64,000 nucleotides of DNA from Acidimicrobiales bacterium (lineage in GTDB: Bacteria; Actinomycetota; Acidimicrobiia; Acidimicrobiales; SKKL01), in assembly GCA_034521975.1 (NCBI GenBank), contig JAXHLR010000005.1, positions 310,001 to 374,000 on the forward strand. The letters run 5' to 3'. Numbering within the stretch: position 1 is the stretch's first letter; every line of letters begins with the position of its first letter. Positions 24,958 to 34,242 of this stretch are shown one piece after another. Both the position numbers and the translations under genes were made by a program. A model generated the notes under the pieces. That model saw only the letters and a program-made list of their open reading frames with translations, was not told the DNA's origin and did not search any database.

Positions 24958-26742
24958 ATGCGGATCGGTTCGGACACCGGCGGTACCTTCACCGATCTGG
25001 TCGCCGCCGACGGTCGCATCGCGAAGGTCCTGTCGACCCCTCAGGACCCCGGCGTCGCCGTGGCCGAGGGTGTGGCCGAGCTCGGTTCCTCCGACGACCT
25101 GACCCTTGCCCACGGCACCACCGTTGCCACCAACGCGCTCCTCGAGGGCCGGGTTGCGTCGGTCGCGCTGGTCACCACCGTCGGCCTGGCCGACGTGATC
25201 GAGATCGCCCGCCAGGACCGCCCCTCGCTCTATGACCCGACGGTGCGACGGCCGGTGCCCCTCGTCGCTCGCGCATTGCGGTTCGAGGTGCGCGGGCGGA
25301 TGGCGGCCGATGGAACCGAGCTGGAGCCGGTGCAGTTGGGTGACGTGCCGGCCGTGATCGATGCGGATGCGGTGGCGATCTGCTTCCTCCACGCCGACCT
25401 CGAACCCGGACACGAGGACGTGGTCGCGGAACTGCTCGGCGCAGGCGGTCGCGACGTGTGCTGCTCCCACGACGTGTCGCCGGAGGTCCGCGAGTACGAG
25501 CGCACGGTCACCACGGTCGTGAACGCCGCGCTGCGTCCGATCCTGCGCGAGTACCTCACCGATCTGGCCGGCACCGCCCACGAGGTGATGGTCATGACCT
25601 CGGCGGGTGGGCTGGTCCCGGCCCGCACTGCGAGCGAGCTCCCCGCCTCGTTGCTGCTGTCCGGGCCTGCGGGCGGGGTGCGGGCGGGTGCCGCGGTCGC
25701 GGCGGCCCACGGATTCGCCGACGCGGTGACCCTCGACATGGGCGGGACCAGCACCGACGTGTGCCTCGTGCTCGACGGGGCACCCGCCCCCGCGGCCCAG
25801 CGGGAGGTCGCGGGCTTCACGGTGCGGTTTCCCGCGCTCGACGTGTTCACCATCGGCGCCGGGGGCGGGTCCATCGCGTCGATCGACCCCGGGGGCGCGC
25901 TGGTGGTCGGCCCCCGCAGCGCAGGCGCCCGCCCCGGCCCCGCCTGCTATGGCCGAGGTGGTGATGAGCCCACCGTCACCGACGCCAACGTGGCCGCGGG
26001 GCGCATCCCCGCTGGGGCGACCTTCGGCGGCATCAGCCTCGACGATCGGCGAGCAGCGGAGGCGCTCGAGCGAGCGGGTGTCGGCGCCGAGGGGGTGCTG
26101 GCGGTGGTGAACGCCAACATGGAGCGCGCCTTGCGTGCGGCCACCGTCGAACGGGGGGTCGACCCCCGTTCGCTCGCCTTGGTTGCCTTCGGTGGGGCAG
26201 GTCCGCTCCACGCGGCCGAGCTGGCCGATGCGTTGGGCATCGCCACCGTGATCGTCCCGGCGCGGGCCGGCGTGCTGTCGGCGGTGGGCATCCTGACCTC
26301 GCCCGTTCAACGTGATCTGGTGCAGTCGTGGCCGACCCCGACCGGCCATGCCGGCCTGGACGAGGCATTGGATGCGCTGGCGGCCGAGGCCACCGCGCTG
26401 GTGGGCCAGGGGGCGGTCGCCACCACGACGGTCGACTGTCGCTACCTGGGCCAGAGCCACGAGATCACCGTGGCGTCGGTCGACGCGTTCGAGGACGAAC
26501 ACCGGCGTCGCAACGGCTACAGCCGTGCCGGTGATCCGGTCGAGGTGATCGCCATCAGGGCCACCGCAGTCCGTCCCTCCCCGGTGTCGATCGAGGACCT
26601 GGCACCGGTGGAGCGGCCCGCACACATCGTCGTGGGACCGGCCACCATCGCCGATCCCGACTCCACGACGTGGGTCCCGGACCGCTGGCAGGCCGAGCCA
26701 GGACTCGACGGTGCGCTGGTGCTGACCCGGCGGTCGCGGTGA
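24958..26742 (+). CDS. hydantoinase/oxoprolinase HyuA-like subunit
   Basis: 594 residues. N-terminal RIGSDTGGTFTDLVAADGR and the LAHGTTVATNALLEG, LDMGGTSTDVCLVLDG and GAGGGSIASIDPGGALVVGP blocks identify the ATP-dependent hydantoinase A/oxoprolinase family. It is about 90 residues shorter than usual, the loss being at the C-terminal end. It hydrolyses cyclic amides (hydantoin, 5-oxoproline or carboxylase-type substrates) with the partner HyuB. ATG 24958 starts the conserved N-terminus; its TGA overlaps the GTG of hyuB. Confidence 0.9.
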   Translation: MRIGSDTGGTFTDLVAADGRIAKVLSTPQDPGVAVAEGVAELGSSDDLTLAHGTTVATNALLEGRVASVALVTTVGLADVIEIARQDRPSLYDPTVRRPVPLVARALRFEVRGRMAADGTELEPVQLGDVPAVIDADAVAICFLHADLEPGHEDVVAELLGAGGRDVCCSHDVSPEVREYERTVTTVVNAALRPILREYLTDLAGTAHEVMVMTSAGGLVPARTASELPASLLLSGPAGGVRAGAAVAAAHGFADAVTLDMGGTSTDVCLVLDGAPAPAAQREVAGFTVRFPALDVFTIGAGGGSIASIDPGGALVVGPRSAGARPGPACYGRGGDEPTVTDANVAAGRIPAGATFGGISLDDRRAAEALERAGVGAEGVLAVVNANMERALRAATVERGVDPRSLALVAFGGAGPLHAAELADALGIATVIVPARAGVLSAVGILTSPVQRDLVQSWPTPTGHAGLDEALDALAAEATALVGQGAVATTTVDCRYLGQSHEITVASVDAFEDEHRRRNGYSRAGDPVEVIAIRATAVRPSPVSIEDLAPVERPAHIVVGPATIADPDSTTWVPDRWQAEPGLDGALVLTRRSR

Positions 26743-28283
26743 CGCTCGATCCCGCGGCGCTCCAGGTCCTGATCTCGCGCCTCACCGGCGTGGCCGAGGA
26801 GATGGGCGCGGTGCTGCGTCGATCGGCGTTCAGCCCCAACATCAAGGAGCGGGCCGACTGCTCGGCCGCCCTCTTCACCGCCGACGGCGCGCTGCTGGTC
26901 CAGGCCGAGCACATCCCCGTCCACCTGGGCTCGATGCCGGCGAGTGTGCAGGCGGCGATCGACGCGTTCGGCGATCAGCTCTCACCCGGGGACCAGATCG
27001 TGCTCAACGATCCGTTCGCGGGTGGGACCCATCTCAACGACATCACCGTGGTGGCCCCCTGCTTCGTGGACGGGCGCCTGGTCGGTTTCGCCGCCAACCG
27101 TGCCCATCACGCCGATGTCGGAGGTTCGGCCCCCGGGTCGATCCCCGCCGATGCCACCGAGATCTACCAGGAGGGGTTGCGCATCCCGCCCACTCGCCTC
27201 GACGAGGGTCTGCGTGGTCTGCTGCTGGCCAACTCGCGGACTCCCATGGAGCGGGCCGGCGATCTGGACGCCCAGGTGGGGGCCAACGTCTTGGGCGTCG
27301 AGCGCCTGGCGCGGTTCGCCGACGCTCCGCTCGACGAGGTGATCGACTACGGCGAACGGCGGATGCGGGCGGCGCTGGCCGAGCTGCCCGACGGCACGTG
27401 GAGGTTCAGCGACGTCGTCGACTCGACCGGGGCCGCTGCCGACCAGCAGAGGCCCGCCCGCATCGTGGTCGCCGTGGAGGTGGTCGGCGACCGGGTGCGC
27501 TTCGACTTCACCGGGACCGATCCTCAGCGACGGGGAAACGTCAACGCCGTCGAAGCTGTGACCGTGTCGTCGGTGGCGTTCGCGCTCCGGGCGGTTCTCG
27601 ATCCCACGATTCCCGCGAACGGGGGAGCGTTCCGAGCGGTCGAGGTGGTCACCGTCGCAGGCAGCATCGTGGCCGCGCTCTCACCAGCGGCGGTCGGGGC
27701 CGGCAACGTGGAGGTCAGCCAGCGGGTGGCCGATGTGTGCTTCGGCGCGCTCGCCCAGGTGGTGCCCGACCGGGTCCCGGCAGCCTCGCAGGGAACGATG
27801 AACAACGTGCTGATCGGCGGCGCCGGGTGGGTGTACTACGAGACCGTCGGCGGCGGCCAGGGTGGTGGCCCGTCGGGTCCGGGGATGAGCGGTGTCCACA
27901 CCGCGATGACTAATACGAAGAACACACCGATCGAGGCACTGGAACGGGCGTTCCCCATGAGAGTGCTGCGCTATCGACTGCGCCGGGGAAGCGGCGGTAC
28001 CGGATGGTCTCCGGGCGGGGAGGGCATCGAGCGCGATCTGCAGATGCTGGAGGATGTGACCGTGAGCCTGATCACCGAGCGCCGTGTCAGCCAGCCGTGG
28101 GGTCTCGCTGGGGGCGAGCCAGGTGCGGTGGGGGAGAACTGGCTGCTGCCTGGGGGTGACGAGGCCCGAGCCGAGCGCCTCCCCGACAAGTGCACGCTCC
28201 GCCTCGCGACTGGCGACGTGCTGCGAATGCTGACGCCGGGCGGAGGCGGCTGGGGGAGGGCTACCGGAACGGGTTCCACCTGA
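26739..28283 (+). CDS. hydantoinase/oxoprolinase HyuB-like subunit
   Basis: 514 residues, HyuB family, with LVQAEHIPVHLGSMP, DQIVLNDPFAGGTHLNDITV and GGGQGGGPSGPGMSGVHTAMTNTKNTP as landmarks and the usual TPGGGGWG end. It overlaps hyuA and should act with it. The last 350 bp of its coding region (27906-28255) recur at 32168-32517 beyond a 3.9 kb island. After that block the present C-terminus (RATGTGST) is island-specific. The 3' end also overlaps the converging membrane-protein gene by 23 bp. Confidence 0.92.
   Translation: MTLDPAALQVLISRLTGVAEEMGAVLRRSAFSPNIKERADCSAALFTADGALLVQAEHIPVHLGSMPASVQAAIDAFGDQLSPGDQIVLNDPFAGGTHLNDITVVAPCFVDGRLVGFAANRAHHADVGGSAPGSIPADATEIYQEGLRIPPTRLDEGLRGLLLANSRTPMERAGDLDAQVGANVLGVERLARFADAPLDEVIDYGERRMRAALAELPDGTWRFSDVVDSTGAAADQQRPARIVVAVEVVGDRVRFDFTGTDPQRRGNVNAVEAVTVSSVAFALRAVLDPTIPANGGAFRAVEVVTVAGSIVAALSPAAVGAGNVEVSQRVADVCFGALAQVVPDRVPAASQGTMNNVLIGGAGWVYYETVGGGQGGGPSGPGMSGVHTAMTNTKNTPIEALERAFPMRVLRYRLRRGSGGTGWSPGGEGIERDLQMLEDVTVSLITERRVSQPWGLAGGEPGAVGENWLLPGGDEARAERLPDKCTLRLATGDVLRMLTPGGGGWGRATGTGST
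27906..28255 (+). repeat. 350-bp direct repeat, left copy (hyuB 3' end)
   Basis: This block matches 32168-32517 at constant offset 4262 with 9 mismatches counted by eye, no gaps. All nine fall at third codon positions and are synonymous in the hyuB frame. It forms the left edge of the island. Confidence 0.9.
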
Positions 28284-28758
28284 AGGTCACCTCGTCACGG
28301 ATCAGCTCAGCGAGGAAGGCATCGTGGTCGCGCAGCGGCGCAAGCTCGTCGTGAAGGTCAGCGATGTTCATTCCAGCGTCGTCGGACATTGCGGGTTGGC
28401 CCCACGCTTCGTTCATCAGCCTGCCAGCAATTCGACGGTGGTCTTCGACGGCGGTCCGATACCCGTCGTAGAGCTTCGGGGCTTCGGCCCCGATCCAGAT
28501 CGAGGCCTCGGTCAGTTCGCGTTGGATTGCCATTACCTCGGTCGAGATCCGACGTCGCTCCGCTTCTGGGTTGGACTCGTCCCGGCGGCGGATGACGTAG
28601 GGGTACTCGCGGTAGGAGGCGAGGGCACCTACGGCCTTCGCCAGTACCTCACGCTTGCGCAGTCGTCGTTCCGCCGCAGCGGTGAATGCTGGGCTGAGGA
28701 GAGCAACGAGGAGCGCGAACCCACCTGCGATGAGGGCCGGGACGTACGCCGGGTTCAT
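28261..28758 (-). CDS. one-helix membrane protein, candidate CBASS effector
   Basis: 165 residues. Residues 4-30 form a single hydrophobic helix (YVPALIAGGFALLVALLSPAF), followed by a basic stretch (RRLRKREV) and a helical, charged cytosolic domain ending TFRWNPFR. No known effector domain (nuclease, phospholipase, TIR, Cap15 barrel) is recognised. It is the third gene of an operon with ATGA overlaps behind a CD-NTase and an E2-like protein, the position an effector takes in CBASS. A membrane-damaging or membrane-anchored role is inferred. Its end overlaps hyuB tail to tail. Confidence 0.7.
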   Translation of the reverse strand: MNPAYVPALIAGGFALLVALLSPAFTAAAERRLRKREVLAKAVGALASYREYPYVIRRRDESNPEAERRRISTEVMAIQRELTEASIWIGAEAPKLYDGYRTAVEDHRRIAGRLMNEAWGQPAMSDDAGMNIADLHDELAPLRDHDAFLAELIRDEVTFRWNPFR

Positions 28759-29180
28759 GCTGCGACCTTCGGGCTGTGCGCCGCTTCGGGACCCAACCAC
28801 TCGCCGGTCTCTCGCCAATGGGCTTCTCTGTAGAGGTGGAGGGCGATGTGGTCGATGAGGTCGCCCAGCCCGTCGCCGAACACCCACCGGTTCGTCTCGG
28901 CATCATCGGGATGCCACATGCACAGATGGTCGTCCGGGTAGCGATGCGGGGACTCGTTGGGGCCGTCGACCTCGACGCGGACGAAGGTCGGAGCATCGGC
29001 CCGAAAGCTGATTGTCGCCGTCCGATCCTCGAAGTGGCCGAGGACGATTGGAACGATGTACTCGATGCCCTCGCCGCTACGATGCCGATGGAAGGGCAGG
29101 CGACGTGCTCGTGCGGCCAGTTCGAACCGAGCCCGTTCGGTGTCGTTACCGAACCACGGCCCGTGGTAGCGCTTCCTCAT
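28755..29180 (-). CDS. E2-like (ubiquitin-conjugating-fold) protein of CBASS type
   Basis: 141 residues. The candidate catalytic cysteine is Cys87 in SPHRYPDDHLCMWHPDD, the arrangement of bacterial E2-like proteins: a histidine, then L-C followed by an aromatic and histidine. The C-terminal block HIALHLYREAHWRETGEWLGPEAAH is also typical of them. No E1 or JAB gene is present, matching the short form of type II CBASS, where an E2 alone joins the cyclase C-terminus to a target. ATG 29180 overlaps the CD-NTase stop, and its own TGA overlaps the next ATG, so the three proteins are translationally coupled. Confidence 0.78.
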   Translation of the reverse strand: MRKRYHGPWFGNDTERARFELAARARRLPFHRHRSGEGIEYIVPIVLGHFEDRTATISFRADAPTFVRVEVDGPNESPHRYPDDHLCMWHPDDAETNRWVFGDGLGDLIDHIALHLYREAHWRETGEWLGPEAAHSPKVAA

Positions 29181-30169
29181 CCCCCGAACGACCGAGTGGT
29201 CTTGACCTGGCTGCCAGCACCTACGGCGATCCCGCTCGCCGTGTAGCGAGCACCTTCGTTTCCGCCTCGGAGTGAAGCGGAGATCGATGCCTGGGACTGG
29301 CGGTCGGCCGGCTCCAGGTAGTTCGGAAAGGCAGCGGCGATGAGGTCCTGCACCTCGTCGTCGTCGTCCGATTCGAGCGCCTTGGCCAATGAGGAAGCGA
29401 GAGCGGTCAGCCGGCTGACCACGATGGCTCGATCGATGAGCAGCTTGATTGGCGGCGACACATCGGCCGGGTCGGGCGTGAGGCGCTTGGCCAGGTCGGT
29501 CGCCCCGTAGTCGGCGATGGCATGAAGGGCCTCCGGGACACCCATGCCGGACTCGACGGCCGAGAGAGCGAGTGCCTCGAGGTTGAAGCTGCACAGGCCC
29601 GGCTGCGTCGGCTGCTTGTTCCACGTCTTGGCCAAGCGAATCGCTCGTGCCCGGGTCACCCGGAGCGCCTTCGGGCCGTCGGTGAGCAGCTCGGTGTGCC
29701 GTTCAGGATGAGAGGCATCCCAGCTGCCCGCATGGAGGTTCGGGATCCAGAGACCGACAGCGTTCTTCCGGGTGAGCCCGACGATGAGGTCGACGCTCGG
29801 CCCGTCAGGGAACTTCACTTCGATCGCTCGCTTCGTCAGCCGCGTCGACACATCCCATCCGTCGTCGTTGAGGTCGGAGCGAACCTTGCTGCGGACCTGC
29901 TCCACAGCGTGGCCTGGGCCGTCGTCGTCGCCGTCCGGTCCGAGCGCACTCCAGACTCGCCTGTCGAGCACGACCCCACAGTCGGCATCAGTGTCGTCGT
30001 TGGCCGTTCCGTGGGCGATCGAGCCGGAGCGATAGGTGCGAAGCGCTCCGTCGAAGGACCCGGCTGAAGACAAGACAGCGTCCCGGTGCTCGCGGGCAGT
30101 GTTCAGAGTGGTGTCGCTCGGAGCGACGTCGTCGCGGATCTGATCGAGCAGGTCATGAATCTTGGACAT
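29177..30169 (-). CDS. CD-NTase-like nucleotidyltransferase (CBASS cyclase)
   Basis: 330 residues. The nucleotidyltransferase core is visible as Gly49-Ser50 (RSGSIAHGT), the acidic pair at Asp61/Asp63 (DTDADCG) and a third Asp127 in PSVDLIVGL. Such enzymes make cyclic di- or trinucleotides on phage infection. The protein ends in VKTTRSFGG: a flexible tail with terminal Gly-Gly, as expected for a cyclase that is conjugated by the adjacent E2-like protein. ATG 30169 follows an AAGGA ribosome site. It heads the leftward operon cyclase-E2-membrane protein. The nucleotide product is not predictable. Confidence 0.83.
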   Translation of the reverse strand: MSKIHDLLDQIRDDVAPSDTTLNTAREHRDAVLSSAGSFDGALRTYRSGSIAHGTANDDTDADCGVVLDRRVWSALGPDGDDDGPGHAVEQVRSKVRSDLNDDGWDVSTRLTKRAIEVKFPDGPSVDLIVGLTRKNAVGLWIPNLHAGSWDASHPERHTELLTDGPKALRVTRARAIRLAKTWNKQPTQPGLCSFNLEALALSAVESGMGVPEALHAIADYGATDLAKRLTPDPADVSPPIKLLIDRAIVVSRLTALASSLAKALESDDDDEVQDLIAAAFPNYLEPADRQSQASISASLRGGNEGARYTASGIAVGAGSQVKTTRSFGG

Positions 30170-30346: not shown

Positions 30347-30790
30347 ATGCGAAACTCACCCGTGAACGTTGTCGACCCCGCCGACCTTGCTGATGACGAG
30401 CGCGAGAAGCTTCGTCACGTCGCCGAGGATGCTGCGACCAGCGGCAAGATCGATCTTGAGTCGCTCCCTGAGGCCGTACGAGCCCAGCTTCTGTTTGCGG
30501 TTGCTGCCTACTCGCGTGGCGAATCCGTCGCGGCAGTCGCCACCGGCAAGCCCCTGACCTCGAACGAGGCAGCGAAGCTGCTCGGCGTGTCACGCACCCA
30601 TCTGACACGCCTCTGCGAAGAAGGCCGCATCGAGAGCTTCCCCGTTGGCAACGCAGTGCGTGTCCCTGCCGACGAGGTCATGCGCATCTTGACCGAACGG
30701 GGCCGAGCCAAGACGCAGGCCCGTGAGGCTGTGGCCACCGCCGACGATCGTCGTCGCGCCCGAGCCGCACGCGCAGCCGGCCTCCAGTAG
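30347..30790 (+). CDS. HTH (excisionase-fold) protein, antitoxin- or regulator-like
   Basis: 147 residues. A helical N-terminal half is followed by a MerR/excisionase-type winged HTH (LTSNEAAKLLGVSRTHLTRLCEEGRIESFPVGNAVRVPADEVMRI) and a basic, Ala/Arg-rich tail. This architecture is common in antitoxins paired with PIN toxins, but no PIN gene follows; instead a DUF3039-like gene converges 10 bp away. Placed divergently from the cyclase, it may control the CBASS operon, or may be a relic antitoxin or island excision factor. ATG 30347 follows an AGGAGA site. Confidence 0.78.
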   Translation: MRNSPVNVVDPADLADDEREKLRHVAEDAATSGKIDLESLPEAVRAQLLFAVAAYSRGESVAAVATGKPLTSNEAAKLLGVSRTHLTRLCEEGRIESFPVGNAVRVPADEVMRILTERGRAKTQAREAVATADDRRRARAARAAGLQ

Positions 30791-30800
30791 TCCTGGCAGG

Positions 30801-31853
30801 TCAGGACTCGGATGAGCCCTTGAGACGTCGGAGTAGGTCGAGGTTCTCCTGGCAACTCGGACAAATGGGGAACTTCTCGTAGTCCCGGTGGGCAACGACG
30901 CTGGCACCGCAGATGGCGACGATCTCGATGCCGGTCGCGTACGCCAAGGTCACTGTGGACCCCTTCGCGAGGTGGCTGAAGTGCTCGGAGCCGTCGCTCA
31001 ATGGGTTGACCGGTGTCCAGGCGTCGCCGTTGGTCAGCAGATCGTCGAGCTCGGCGGAGGTGGCCATGTGCTCGACCCACTCCTCGGTCACATAGGTGAA
31101 CCAGGAGTGCGGTGAGTCGTCATTCCTGCGCGGCGGGAGGTAGTCCCAGTCATCGATGCTCTCGCGTCCGGGCACCATGGCAAGCACGTCCATGGGAAAG
31201 CGATCCTGGTGTTCGAACTGAGCGAACTCCCAGCTCAGCTCCAGCACGGCCATGCCGCCCTCGTCGGGCATGACTCTCATCGACAGCGTGGCACCAAACA
31301 CCTCGGCGTCGACCGTTGATCCACGGGATCGGGCGGCGGCAAGGAGAGCACCCAGGACCTGGCCGTGCGCCTCCCGTTCGACTCCACACTCGACCTCGTA
31401 GGCCTCTTCGAGTCGGCGGTAGCGTTCGTCGGCCTCGGTTGGGGCGATGGGCGACGAGTCCGTCGCGAACCGCTCGAGATCCCGGTAGAAGTCACCGGAC
31501 CCGTCGTCCTTGCGCCGACCGGCGGCGAGGAGCCACCAGATACCGTCGTCGTCTTGCCACAGCGCGGCACGGCGGTCGCCGGTCTTCACCTTGATCACGT
31601 GACGGTCTGTGATGGCCACGATCCGCTCTCGAGGTGCCGCGTCGTCGCTGGCGATCAGGTTCGCCTTGTCGAGGACAGGGTGCTCCGCGTCCACCAGGGA
31701 GCAAGGTAGGAGATGCGTGGGGTCGGCGCCCATGTCCTCGACGACCGTCCGAAGCGCCACTCGAAGCTCGTCCGGCCCTACCTCCAGCGCAAGGTCGTCG
31801 ACCAGACATCGGAGCGTGGGCCGCACCAGTCGTTTGTCGTCCGAATCCGTCAT
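30801..31853 (-). CDS. uncharacterised protein with DUF3039-like Cys tail
   Basis: 350 residues from ATG 31853. The C-terminal 60 residues (SEHFSHLAKGSTVTLAYATG...AICGASVV...FPICPSCQ) resemble DUF3039, with cysteines in ICG and CPSC that could bind zinc. The N-terminal part includes TDRHVIKVKTGDRRAALWQDDDGIWWLLAAGRRKDD, reminiscent of small RelE/HigB-like folds, then a long region without known motif. It converges with the HTH gene. It could be a toxin or second defence component of the island; no direct evidence. Confidence 0.6.
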   Translation of the reverse strand: MTDSDDKRLVRPTLRCLVDDLALEVGPDELRVALRTVVEDMGADPTHLLPCSLVDAEHPVLDKANLIASDDAAPRERIVAITDRHVIKVKTGDRRAALWQDDDGIWWLLAAGRRKDDGSGDFYRDLERFATDSSPIAPTEADERYRRLEEAYEVECGVEREAHGQVLGALLAAARSRGSTVDAEVFGATLSMRVMPDEGGMAVLELSWEFAQFEHQDRFPMDVLAMVPGRESIDDWDYLPPRRNDDSPHSWFTYVTEEWVEHMATSAELDDLLTNGDAWTPVNPLSDGSEHFSHLAKGSTVTLAYATGIEIVAICGASVVAHRDYEKFPICPSCQENLDLLRRLKGSSES

Positions 31854-32068
31854 CGCTCGCTCCAGCTCGCAGCCGCATGGCCACGTCGATGATGCCCGAC
31901 ACAGTGGCGTGAGCCGCTGACCCTGGCCGTAGACAAGTGTCCGCCTCACGCATTGCACTCAGTCGACGCGTGCGTCGAGCCATGGCTGGTTCAGCTGCAG
32001 GTAGTACCTGGATCCACACCGCAATGGCCGACGCAGATCAAGTTGACTGCTGATTGGTGGCGGGAGTT
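31854..32068. other. island right-hand non-coding stretch
   Basis: No convincing gene in either direction. The sequence is AT-richer than its surroundings and presumably carries the promoter of the leftward gene at 30801-31853. It leads into the tandem 32-bp repeats and the second hyuB 3' copy. Confidence 0.5.
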
Positions 32069-32100
32069 CCTGGCCAGTCGGGAATTCACACGTGCATGAC
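32069..32100 (+). repeat. 32-bp tandem repeat, copy 1
   Basis: A 32-bp unit beginning CCTGGCCAGTCGGGAATTCA recurs 72 bp downstream with one mismatch. In frame it encodes PGQSGIHTCMT, a HyuB family motif. Confidence 0.85.
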
Positions 32101-32140
32101 CAACGCTGTCGACGAAGGACACCAGTCGGTGGTGGGCGTG

Positions 32141-32172
32141 CCTGGCCAGTCGGGAATTCATACGTGCATGAC
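32141..32172 (+). repeat. 32-bp tandem repeat, copy 2
   Basis: Second copy of the unit at 32069-32100, running directly into the right-hand 350-bp hyuB repeat. It marks the right edge of the island. Confidence 0.85.
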
Positions 32173-32517
32173 AAATACGAAGAACACACCGATCGAGGCA
32201 CTGGAACGGGCGTTCCCCATGAGAGTGCTGCGCTATCGACTGCGCCGGGGGAGCGGCGGTACCGGATGGTCTCCGGGCGGGGAGGGCATCGAGCGCGATC
32301 TGCAGATGCTGGAGGACGTGACCGTGAGCCTGATCACCGAGCGCCGTGTCAGCCAGCCGTGGGGTCTCGCTGGGGGCGAGCCCGGTGCGGTGGGGGAGAA
32401 CTGGCTACTGCCTGGGGGTGACGAGGCCCGAGCCGAGCGCCTGCCCGACAAGTGCACGCTCCGCCTCGCGACTGGCGACGTGCTGCGAATGCTGACGCCC
32501 GGCGGCGGCGGGTGGGG
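32168..32517 (+). repeat. 350-bp direct repeat, right copy (hyuB 3' end)
   Basis: Partner of 27906-28255. Similarity stops sharply after the TGGGG of the GGGGWG codons; the sequence beyond is unrelated in the two copies. Confidence 0.9.
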
Positions 32518-32605
32518 CCCATCAGTGCGGTCTGGCGATCTCTGACCGTCCGAACGAGTCGTGCGGCTCTACGCCAACTGGGAGCAGGCTGGTAGGCTCA
32601 TCCCA

Positions 32606-32842
32606 ATGGAAGCTACCGTTGACGAGGTCGGTCGGATCGTGGTCCCCAAGGCCTTGCGAGACAGGCTGCGGCTCACGCCAGGCATGAAGGTCGATGTCAG
32701 CGAATACGGGGACGGGCTGCACATCACTCCAGTGAGCCGTACTGCTCGACTCGAGGATCGCGATGGGCGCCTCGTTGCCGTCGCGGAAACACCTGTCACC
32801 GATGACGACGTGTTGGCGCTGGTCGACGCCGGCCGTCGATGA
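32606..32842 (+). CDS. vapB: AbrB-type VapB antitoxin (pair 2)
   Basis: 78 residues. The N-terminus EATVDEVGRIVVPKALRDRLRLTPGMKVDVSEYGDGLHI is a SpoVT-AbrB swapped-hairpin DNA-binding domain; the C-terminal 30 residues would cover the toxin. ATG 32606 starts the domain. Its TGA overlaps the ATG of the PIN gene, the standard coupled antitoxin-toxin order. It lies just outside the island's right repeat. Confidence 0.88.
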   Translation: MEATVDEVGRIVVPKALRDRLRLTPGMKVDVSEYGDGLHITPVSRTARLEDRDGRLVAVAETPVTDDDVLALVDAGRR

Positions 32843-33249
32843 CCGAGGTGGTCCTGGACACCAGCGTGGCTGTCCCGTTGCTCGTGACCTCGCATGTCGC
32901 TCACCGAGCTGTCGGTGCGTCGCTCGGCGATCGGTCGGCCGCGCTCGCCGGGCATGCCTTGCACGAGACGTACGCGGTCCTCACTCGGCTACCGGGCGAC
33001 GCACGTGTCGCCCCGGCGGACGCTGTCCGTCTCCTGCGGGAGCGATTCGAGCCGGCGGCGCTCCTCGATGCCAAGTCGGTTCGCTCGGCCCCAGCCGTCC
33101 TTGCCGGTGCCGGCGTCGCAGGCGGAGCCACCTACGACGGGTTGGTCGCCCTTGCTGCGCTGTCGGCGGGCGTTCCGCTCGCAAGCCGGGATCGACGCGC
33201 GCTGAGCACCTACCGCCTCCTGGGTGTGTCGGTAGAGACGTTCGGTTGA
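32839..33249 (+). CDS. vapC: VapC PIN-domain toxin (pair 2)
   Basis: 136 residues. Acidic PIN residues Asp7 (VVLDTSVAVPLL), Glu43, Asp100 (GATYDGLVALAAL) and Asp118 (ASRDRRA) are all present, so the ribonuclease site is complete. It overlaps its antitoxin gene by 4 bp. RNA target unknown. Confidence 0.88.
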   Translation: MTEVVLDTSVAVPLLVTSHVAHRAVGASLGDRSAALAGHALHETYAVLTRLPGDARVAPADAVRLLRERFEPAALLDAKSVRSAPAVLAGAGVAGGATYDGLVALAALSAGVPLASRDRRALSTYRLLGVSVETFG

Positions 33250-33298: not shown

Positions 33299-33631
33299 GT
33301 GGCCGACACCATCGTCGAGGACCCTGGTGGAGACTCCGACCGGCCGCGCGAGGAGCCAGCTGACTCGACACGGAGCGACCACCGGCGACGCAACAGCGGT
33401 TGGTTGGCTCGCTTCGTCGGCCTCGTCATCGGGGGGATCGTCCTCAGCGGTGCACTGCTGCTGTGGATCGTGGTCTCGGTCGGTGAGCCATCCGAGTTCA
33501 GGGCACCCGAGACGGGGAGCCTGCTCGGCTCGACCGGTTCGTGTTCGCGAGCCAGTGTGATTGCAAAGTGCAGCGAGCGCGCTAGCGTTTTGCGACATGA
33601 AGATCCTCTACCTTCGAAACGTCCCGGATGA
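33299..33631 (+). CDS. possible small single-helix membrane protein
   Basis: 110 residues from GTG 33299 after an AAAGG site. A charged N-terminus precedes one hydrophobic helix ([27 protein letters not shown]). The last 12 codons overlap the start of the next antitoxin gene, and no family is recognised. It may be real or a chance frame; an earlier natural end is not visible. Confidence 0.35.
33561..33588 (+). promoter_or_regulatory. candidate promoter of vapBC pair 3
   Basis: TTGCAA (33561-33566) and TAGCGT (33583-33588), 16 bp apart, lie just before the antitoxin ATG at 33597. The palindromes AGCGCGCT and CGCTAGCG between and over the boxes could serve as autoregulatory operator. No room remains for a leader, so the transcript would be leaderless or nearly so. 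Confidence 0.4.
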
Positions 33632-33818
33632 GGTCGGCGAGCGGCTCGAACGATTGGCTGCCCGTGAGGGGCTGTCGGTCTCCGCGTTCGCGACCCGCGA
33701 GCTGGCCGTCGTCGCCCGCCGGGCCGACAATCCCGCCCTGCTTGCGGACCTTCCCGACCTGGGTGTGGATGCGGCGGTCACCGTCGGCGATGTCGAGGCT
33801 GGTCGCGGCGAGCGGTGA
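33597..33818 (+). CDS. vapB: ribbon-helix-helix antitoxin (pair 3)
   Basis: 73 residues. [36 protein letters not shown] is a FitA/VapB-type ribbon-helix-helix DNA-binding domain, followed by a short toxin-binding tail. The stop overlaps the GTG of the PIN gene. This antitoxin fold differs from pairs 1 and 2, so the three vapBC sets are not duplicates of each other. Confidence 0.88.
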
Positions 33819-34198
33819 TCGTGATCGACGCCTCGGCGGCAGTGCTCGGTCTGCTCAACGATGGCGACGCCAGAGCGATGCTCCGTGAGGCCTCGGTCGT
33901 CTGTCCTCACCTGGCCGACTCGGAGGTGGTCCAGGCGCTCCGCGCCCAGGTCTTGCGGGGCGAGGTCAACGCGACCGATGCCACTCGAGCCGTCGAGGTG
34001 TGGCGGCGCCTCGGCATCGAGCGTGTTGGTGTCACGGGTCTGCTCGCTCGCATGTGGGAGCTGCGCGACAACGTCGGTGCCTACGACGCCACCTACGTCG
34101 CGGTCGCGGAGGCGCTGGAGGCGCCGCTCGTCACCGCTGATGGTCGACTTGCTCGCGCTCCAGGACCTCGGTGCACGGTCACCGTCATTCGCCGTTGA
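33815..34198 (+). CDS. vapC: VapC PIN-domain toxin (pair 3)
   Basis: 127 residues with Asp5 ([13 protein letters not shown]), Glu37, Asp91 ([14 protein letters not shown]) and Asp109 ([10 protein letters not shown]). The PIN active site is complete. GTG start overlaps the antitoxin stop. Ribonuclease toxin; target not predictable. Confidence 0.88.
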
Positions 34199-34242
34199 CC
34201 GGCCACCTGAGGCCTGCCTCGCTCGTCCTCGTCGAGCCGGGG

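Follow-up and report, generated by a model that had tools for sequence, protein, structure and literature searches.

The window analysed here is a 64,000-nucleotide stretch of an Acidimicrobiales genome and it contains an intact hyuB gene (hydantoinase B / oxoprolinase; 26739-28283, plus strand) followed by an island. The gene is a 514-aa open frame that matches PF02538 (1.7e-184) and is free of the linker units described below. Its putative native attB (PGMSGVHTA-MTN-TKNTPIE) is located at 27879-27935 on the plus strand, with the crossover dinucleotide AC inferred for this copy at 27909-27910. The placement is based on the junctions of complete elements in relatives, which pass from foreign to hyuB sequence at [AT]TGAC^NAA. 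Three minus-strand genes follow, namely a CBASS-like 1TM effector that overlaps the hyuB stop (28261-28887; PADLOC PDLC00666, 2e-22), a CBASS-like E2 protein with an approximate start (28755-29200; PADLOC PDLC00867, 2e-30) and a CD-NTase / oligonucleotide cyclase (29177-30169; PADLOC PDLC00777, 1.9e-106), for which the SMODS Pfam match was below cutoff. The cyclase, E2 and 1TM effector models supply the CD-NTase, ancillary gene and effector expected of CBASS cargo, with activity being predicted only. Further right are an HTH_17 DNA-binding protein (30347-30790, plus strand; PF12728, 3.8e-11) and a DUF3039 protein of uncertain start (30801-31958, minus strand; PF11238, 2.1e-11). The HTH_17 protein also shows a weak match to PADLOC mad1 and could be excisionase-like or a defence regulator.

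A second hyuB 3' end is found at 32168-32545 (plus strand; PF02538 profile positions 387-518) and is 97.7% identical to the intact copy over 344 nt. It is followed on the same strand by a MazE-like antitoxin and PIN toxin pair (32561-33249; PF04014 and PF01850; homologs in L091, L033 and L140), which also occurs directly 3' of hyuB ends in other genomes, and by a second toxin-antitoxin-like pair (33581-34201). This second pair shares 78.6% identity with the cargo of a G286 mini-cassette, whose structure was read in L095. Apart from these pairs and one weak match for 33299-33628, no relatives of the island genes were observed at other hyuB loci. A third hyuB remnant was sought further right within the window and none was found.

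Two copies of a 32-base repeat precede the second hyuB 3' end (32069-32100 and 32141-32172). They follow one pattern exactly except for a single C/T position, are spaced by exactly 72 bp and both translate to PGQSGIHTCMTN in the hyuB frame, where 10 of the 12 codons differ from those of CCGGGGATGAGCGGTGTCCACACCGCGATGACTAAT in the intact gene (27879-27914). The repeats continue without a gap into the second 3' end, whose segment 32168-32517 is 97.7% identical to 27906-28255 of intact hyuB. The first-pass annotation, which had described two copies 72 bp apart carrying a hyuB motif in other codons and running into the right hyuB repeat, is therefore upheld on these points. Its 32-bp repeat unit has to be amended, as the true repeat length is 72 bp (24 codons) and a decayed third motif copy (TCCACACCGCAATGGCC...) starts near 32012. 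With this third copy, the array therefore comprises two linkers and three hyuB-type cores (32024, 32096 and 32168). The reading frame across the array contains a single stop, a TGA in the first linker.

All features of the array are on the plus strand. The decayed B half-site and core (IHTAMAD) of the oldest unit are located at 32012-32029 and were placed by local alignment of 32012-32053 with units of another genome, G254 (score 56). Linker 1 (ADQVDC*LVAGV; 32030-32068) is a class-B P' half-site that includes CAGATCAAGTTGACT and the one stop codon, and it is followed by the first recoded putative attB copy (32069-32101). Linker 2 (AVDEGHQSVVGV; 32102-32140) is a class-A P' half-site that includes GTCGACGAAGGACACC; it matches the class-A P half-site and is 61/72 identical to the second G254 unit. 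The second recoded putative attB copy (32141-32173) completes the array. The first linker unit shares 59 of 72 positions with units of another genome where the maximum over sampled windows was 42, so the similarity is not due to chance. A GGTAGT near 32000 was considered as a P half-site and excluded because it lies 27 nt from the core and not 23 (counted by eye). No clear P half-site was seen to the left of 32012.

No other copy of the 32-base unit was found in the 3.3-Mb genome when up to three mismatches were allowed. An exact search with a 27-base unit across 84,980 named genomes also gave no match. Since the exact letters of the unit are not preserved, relatives were sought at the protein and whole-genome level instead. 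The hyuB gene was searched in 99 and then in 397 genomes of Acidimicrobiales; named matches are MAGs, mostly labelled Acidimicrobiales, Acidimicrobiia or Microthrixaceae. Many additional hyuB 3' pieces in these genomes were observed to begin at one common codon. Within continuous hyuB frames, in-frame units of the form MTNT-linker-PGQSGIHTxMTNT are seen directly in the sequence, with 26 stop-free units of 24, 25 or 29 codons in 17 of 57 distinct contexts. As an example, a Microthrixaceae MAG (G254, JAMLGJ010000007.1) carries five units of classes B-A-B-B-B. The site is empty in G131, a member of a sister genus, and a linker-free hyuB followed by displaced fragments was also found in G105 and G143. 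A search for the array in viral contigs did not find it. In a low-confidence AlphaFold model of the five-unit HyuB (mean pLDDT 52.6), which was not counted as evidence, the array is nothing but coil, at a pLDDT of about 20. The hyuB gene of G340 (L134/L096) appears to be frameshifted past about residue 412, and this restored gene may be broken or misassembled.

The recoded PGQSGIHTxMTNT segment was found in the hyuB genes of many families of the order, and the earlier suggestion of a recoded target segment is retained. The codons TCG GGA ATT CAC are typical of later motif copies, and AGC GGC GTG CAC of first or native copies. Mean identity is 0.82 among later copies and 0.74 among first copies, and a common origin of the later copies is therefore probable. 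The recoded letters might be retained through recombinase binding or through recent spread, and the evidence does not decide between the two.

Genes of one large serine recombinase (LSR) family were found to adjoin displaced hyuB 3' ends and to point away from the hyuB sequence; in classes A and B, about 25 bp separate the start codon and the junction. This location is observed directly. Where the flank suffices, all recombinases that are at least about 45% identical adjoin a hyuB 3' fragment (G340, G057, G336, G060, G010, G016, G122, G254 and G409/SSF4), and recombinase gene fragments are also located beside hyuB in G219 and G305. A relative with 38% identity (G124) is located away from hyuB, and phage integrases are only about 29% similar to these recombinases. 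The enzymes of the relatives have the Resolvase, Recombinase and Zn-ribbon domains of LSRs. The recombinase tree sorts the sequences according to linker class; G060 and G057 have long branches and their placement is uncertain. A recombinase of this family was absent from the window and its genome at the search sensitivity used.

The sequence between the start codon and the junction (P) mirrors the linker (P') as its reverse complement, with equal spacing from the core, and this pairing is again seen directly. The letters shared by P and P' are GGTAGTCAA in class B, GGTGTC in class A and CGGTAGsC in class C; in SSF4, for example, CATAGGTAGTCAAAGACTATTGAGTTG-AC is matched by GATCGGTAGTCAACTTGATCTGTGTTG on the reverse complement. 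Classes A and B gave own-pair scores of 13-17 of 27 with a background near 7, and the fraction of random windows reaching these scores ranged from 0 of 5000 up to 0.01. The scores in the pairing matrix form blocks that correspond to the classes; class C is clearly separated, whereas A and B are partly similar and less well separated from each other. The class-C linker (SQAATGS in G340) scored 8 of 27 against a wrong-partner P; its own P, which pairs in the same register, was located next to the recombinase of G300 and where contig C65 of G340 begins. Half-sites with dyad symmetry about a 2-bp core, as required of an LSR attP, are thus present in three classes. The G300 contig (G300:C50; L099, L100 and L082) is mirror-symmetric, with a hyuB piece and recombinase in both orientations, and is probably an assembly artefact.

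We consider it likely that the repeats are attachment-site units left by LSR integrative elements that inserted within hyuB, where the activity of the recombinases, the exact crossover and the use of the recoded segment as attB are inferred. In the proposed mechanism, the LSR would join the attP of a circular element to an attB at about codon 390 of hyuB, with the crossover inferred at the AC of ATGACNAA, and this codon would serve as attB for three LSR classes. Half-site P of the attP would overlap the start of the recombinase gene, and the other half-site, P', would be encoded as a linker in the hyuB frame (class A ...VDEGHQS..., class B ...DQVDYRS..., class C ...SQAATGS...). In the element the linker would be followed by the recoded PGQSGIHTxMTNT, a fresh attB, and then by about 350 bp of hyuB 3' end. 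Insertion would leave hyuB open with 24, 25 or 29 additional codons, recreate the target for the next element and push the old 3' end of the host to the right of the island. Repeated insertion would build a ladder of units in HyuB with the newest last and the downstream elements in reverse order, and islands with phage-defence and toxin-antitoxin genes would accumulate at hyuB.

The order of elements in one genome bears on this prediction. The hyuB gene of G340 carries linker C and then linker B; downstream are a class-B element with its recombinase and right junction and then, close to where the contig stops, a recombinase of class C. The right junction of class C was located where a different contig begins, and the final link spans an assembly gap. 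This nested order (linkers C-B, elements B-C) is itself seen in the sequence and is what repeated use of a regenerated target would predict, an inference that rests on this one genome. Linkers of different classes in tandem and stacked elements downstream agree with the earlier reading of layered insertions at one protein-coding site, which held. The expectation that islands always end in the motif failed for the right end. Complete elements have the unit at the left end, within the restored hyuB, and their right end is the other half-site, beside the recombinase gene. We also noticed P-core-P' junctions in L140 (1-120) and in L025 (around 4875), as though one element had entered beside another at a hybrid site. 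Such junctions (G003 and the left end of SSF4) require insertion into a hybrid site, and this counts against the mechanism as proposed.

The hyuB 3' ends were also observed directly to be mosaic, with 3' halves common to different families and 5' halves not. In five class-B carriers the 3' segment has a mean identity of 88.3% and the 5' segment 72.6%, whereas 171 pairs of plain hyuB genes gave 78.0% and 74.3%, respectively, and none of the 169 plain pairs with a 5' identity of up to 82% reached 86% in the 3' segment. The five carriers were selected after a first comparison; all eight class-B carriers gave 84.6% (3') and 73.2% (5'). When G060 was compared with its sister genome G131, the displaced 3' end was 89.1% identical, the element-borne end 87.4% and the 5' part 94.5%. 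This evidence is weak, as the identity of the displaced end to G131 exceeds that of the element-borne end by a small margin only. Judged from sequence alone, the hyuB 3' end of unit carriers is likely to be foreign.

An alternative is that the units are ordinary tandem duplications in HyuB, produced by slippage or unequal crossover without any role of a recombinase, and that the adjacent islands are coincidental. The period of 24 codons, which is fixed in most cases, and the similar or near-identical neighbouring units in G060, FR_3 and G068 would be in favour of this explanation. However, adjacent linkers are often unrelated (A beside B, C beside B), and duplication would copy the native motif whereas the later copies have common recoded codons. 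Furthermore, the linkers pair with half-sites beside recombinase genes and the hyuB 3' halves are mosaic. We therefore regard tandem duplication as highly improbable.

Complete elements in relatives indicate the cargo that attachment-site insertion may bring to hyuB. The SSF4 element (about 9 kb) and the G340 element (about 10 kb) have a TrwC-type relaxase, a recombinase and defence-like genes, the last comprising across the two elements methylases, TIR and 8xMP proteins and a pPIWI-associated nuclease. With recombinase and relaxase on one element, both probably represent integrative and mobilizable elements, although this assignment is inferred from their gene content. A DUF6414 protein of the SSF4 element (L140:7050-8018) shows a weak match to the candidate defence model PDC-S02. 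Cassettes of less than a kilobase, whose sole content is an apparent toxin-antitoxin pair, were found in G105 and G286; these pairs were identified by reading and by similarity to the window, without a family search of each. The 37-kb insert of G060 (L106/L107, G060:C22:155500-194500) contains four additional, distant serine recombinases (about 26-32% identical), perhaps of other nested elements.

As for the window, its right-hand hyuB copy is probably what remains of a gene restored at an earlier stage, with a class-B and then a class-A fossil unit, an interpretation inferred from the sequence; the right edge shows units because it is such a remnant. The two 3' ends have nine third-position differences and no amino-acid changes over 115 codons, so both were under selection until recently. 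The island is not bounded by the attL and attR of one element, since the intact hyuB is linker-free and the right edge has no visible P half-site, and a TrwC relaxase is not among the annotated genes of the island. The linker-free hyuB counts against LSR entry at this position, as insertion by a recombinase of class A, B or C would have left a linker; the lack of a clear P half-site and of a recombinase of the family likewise counts against it.

A rival explanation for this last step alone, which accepts the attachment-site origin of the units, is homologous recombination. In this scenario, the CBASS island and a 3' end with units would have arrived on a circle or on transformed DNA, which then crossed over in the 350-bp hyuB 3' end of a plain host gene. 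It accounts for the linker-free intact hyuB and for the absence of a P half-site and a recombinase, and it also explains why the 3' ends are 97.7% identical and all of their coding differences synonymous; plain hyuB genes with displaced fragments after them are present in G105 and G143 too. Against it, no empty or donor relative of the exact island was found, and an identical picture would result if the intact copy had since undergone gene conversion or if a half-site had decayed. We find this rival as easy to accept as to reject. If the island entered in this way, the stop in the first linker is younger than the displacement. The event that placed the CBASS-like island beside a linker-free hyuB is thus unresolved by the evidence, homologous exchange and later conversion both being possible.

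A further rival is that the array is the target of a homing endonuclease, group II intron or diversity-generating retroelement with a recoded exon. Homing elements typically show recoded sequence near their point of insertion where this falls in a conserved protein motif. However, an Rfam search of 26-34 kb gave no match, the annotated genes of the island include no reverse transcriptase or endonuclease and the relatives show serine recombinases with dyad att sites instead. This explanation can be nearly ruled out.

A bolder form of the attachment-site reading has three parts, which we hold only jointly and would narrowly bet against. First, hyuB would be a self-renewing landing pad, integron-like but built with serine recombinases. 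Second, non-autonomous mini-cassettes whose sole cargo is a toxin-antitoxin pair or a defence system (G105, G286 and perhaps the CBASS block of the window) would be inserted by recombinases acting in trans, each restoring the gene and its target. Third, the HyuB protein would hold a translated, time-ordered record of insertions.

With the attachment site written as protein, a site in the middle of a conserved enzyme gene may serve islands as a permanent entry without loss of the gene. The linker ladder could then be read as an insertion history that includes lost elements. In addition, hyuB loci of Acidimicrobiales are worth searching for defence and toxin-antitoxin cargo, and the attP and attB sequences predicted for the three recombinase classes are open to direct testing.

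The closest comparison is with SCC/ECC cassettes, which use the CcrAB large serine recombinases, an attB in the 3' region of rlmH, dyad att sites and variable cargo (PMC6222049), and in which successive stacking of SCC elements is known. The hyuB elements resemble them in the use of LSRs, a conserved protein gene as target, dyad-symmetric att sites and variable cargo. They differ in that the target is hyuB rather than rlmH and that one recombinase gene is located beside the junction where SCC has a ccrAB pair; whether the enzymes belong to the ccr family is open on domain content alone. The inferred hyuB crossover is also about 115 codons before the stop, so the element brings about 350 bp of the gene, and translation of the P' half-site yields an additional peptide, after which the element supplies a recoded putative attB, an arrangement that leads to a ladder inside the protein. 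LSRs that hit conserved coding sequences, with diverse LSRs on one site such as prolyl isomerase, have been described (Durrant et al. 2022, PMC10083194). The diverse hyuB-site LSRs similarly share one conserved coding-sequence site; that study treats the target genes as disrupted, whereas the hyuB element would restore both gene and target. Neither a target in a hydantoinase gene nor an attachment half-site that is translated was found in the open-licence literature searched. Islands of the e14/icd type and SGI1 at trmE supply a replacement 3' end and displace the old one, as the hyuB element is proposed to do. Those islands use tyrosine recombinases and short gene ends and, to our knowledge, have no translated half-site or regenerated recoded target. 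Integrons rely on a tyrosine integrase (IntI) with attI/attC; the junction enzymes at hyuB are serine recombinases with attP/attB, and on this enzyme evidence, rather than on attC folds, the hyuB loci are not integrons. The likeness to integrons is that small toxin-antitoxin cassettes accumulate in order at a single site.
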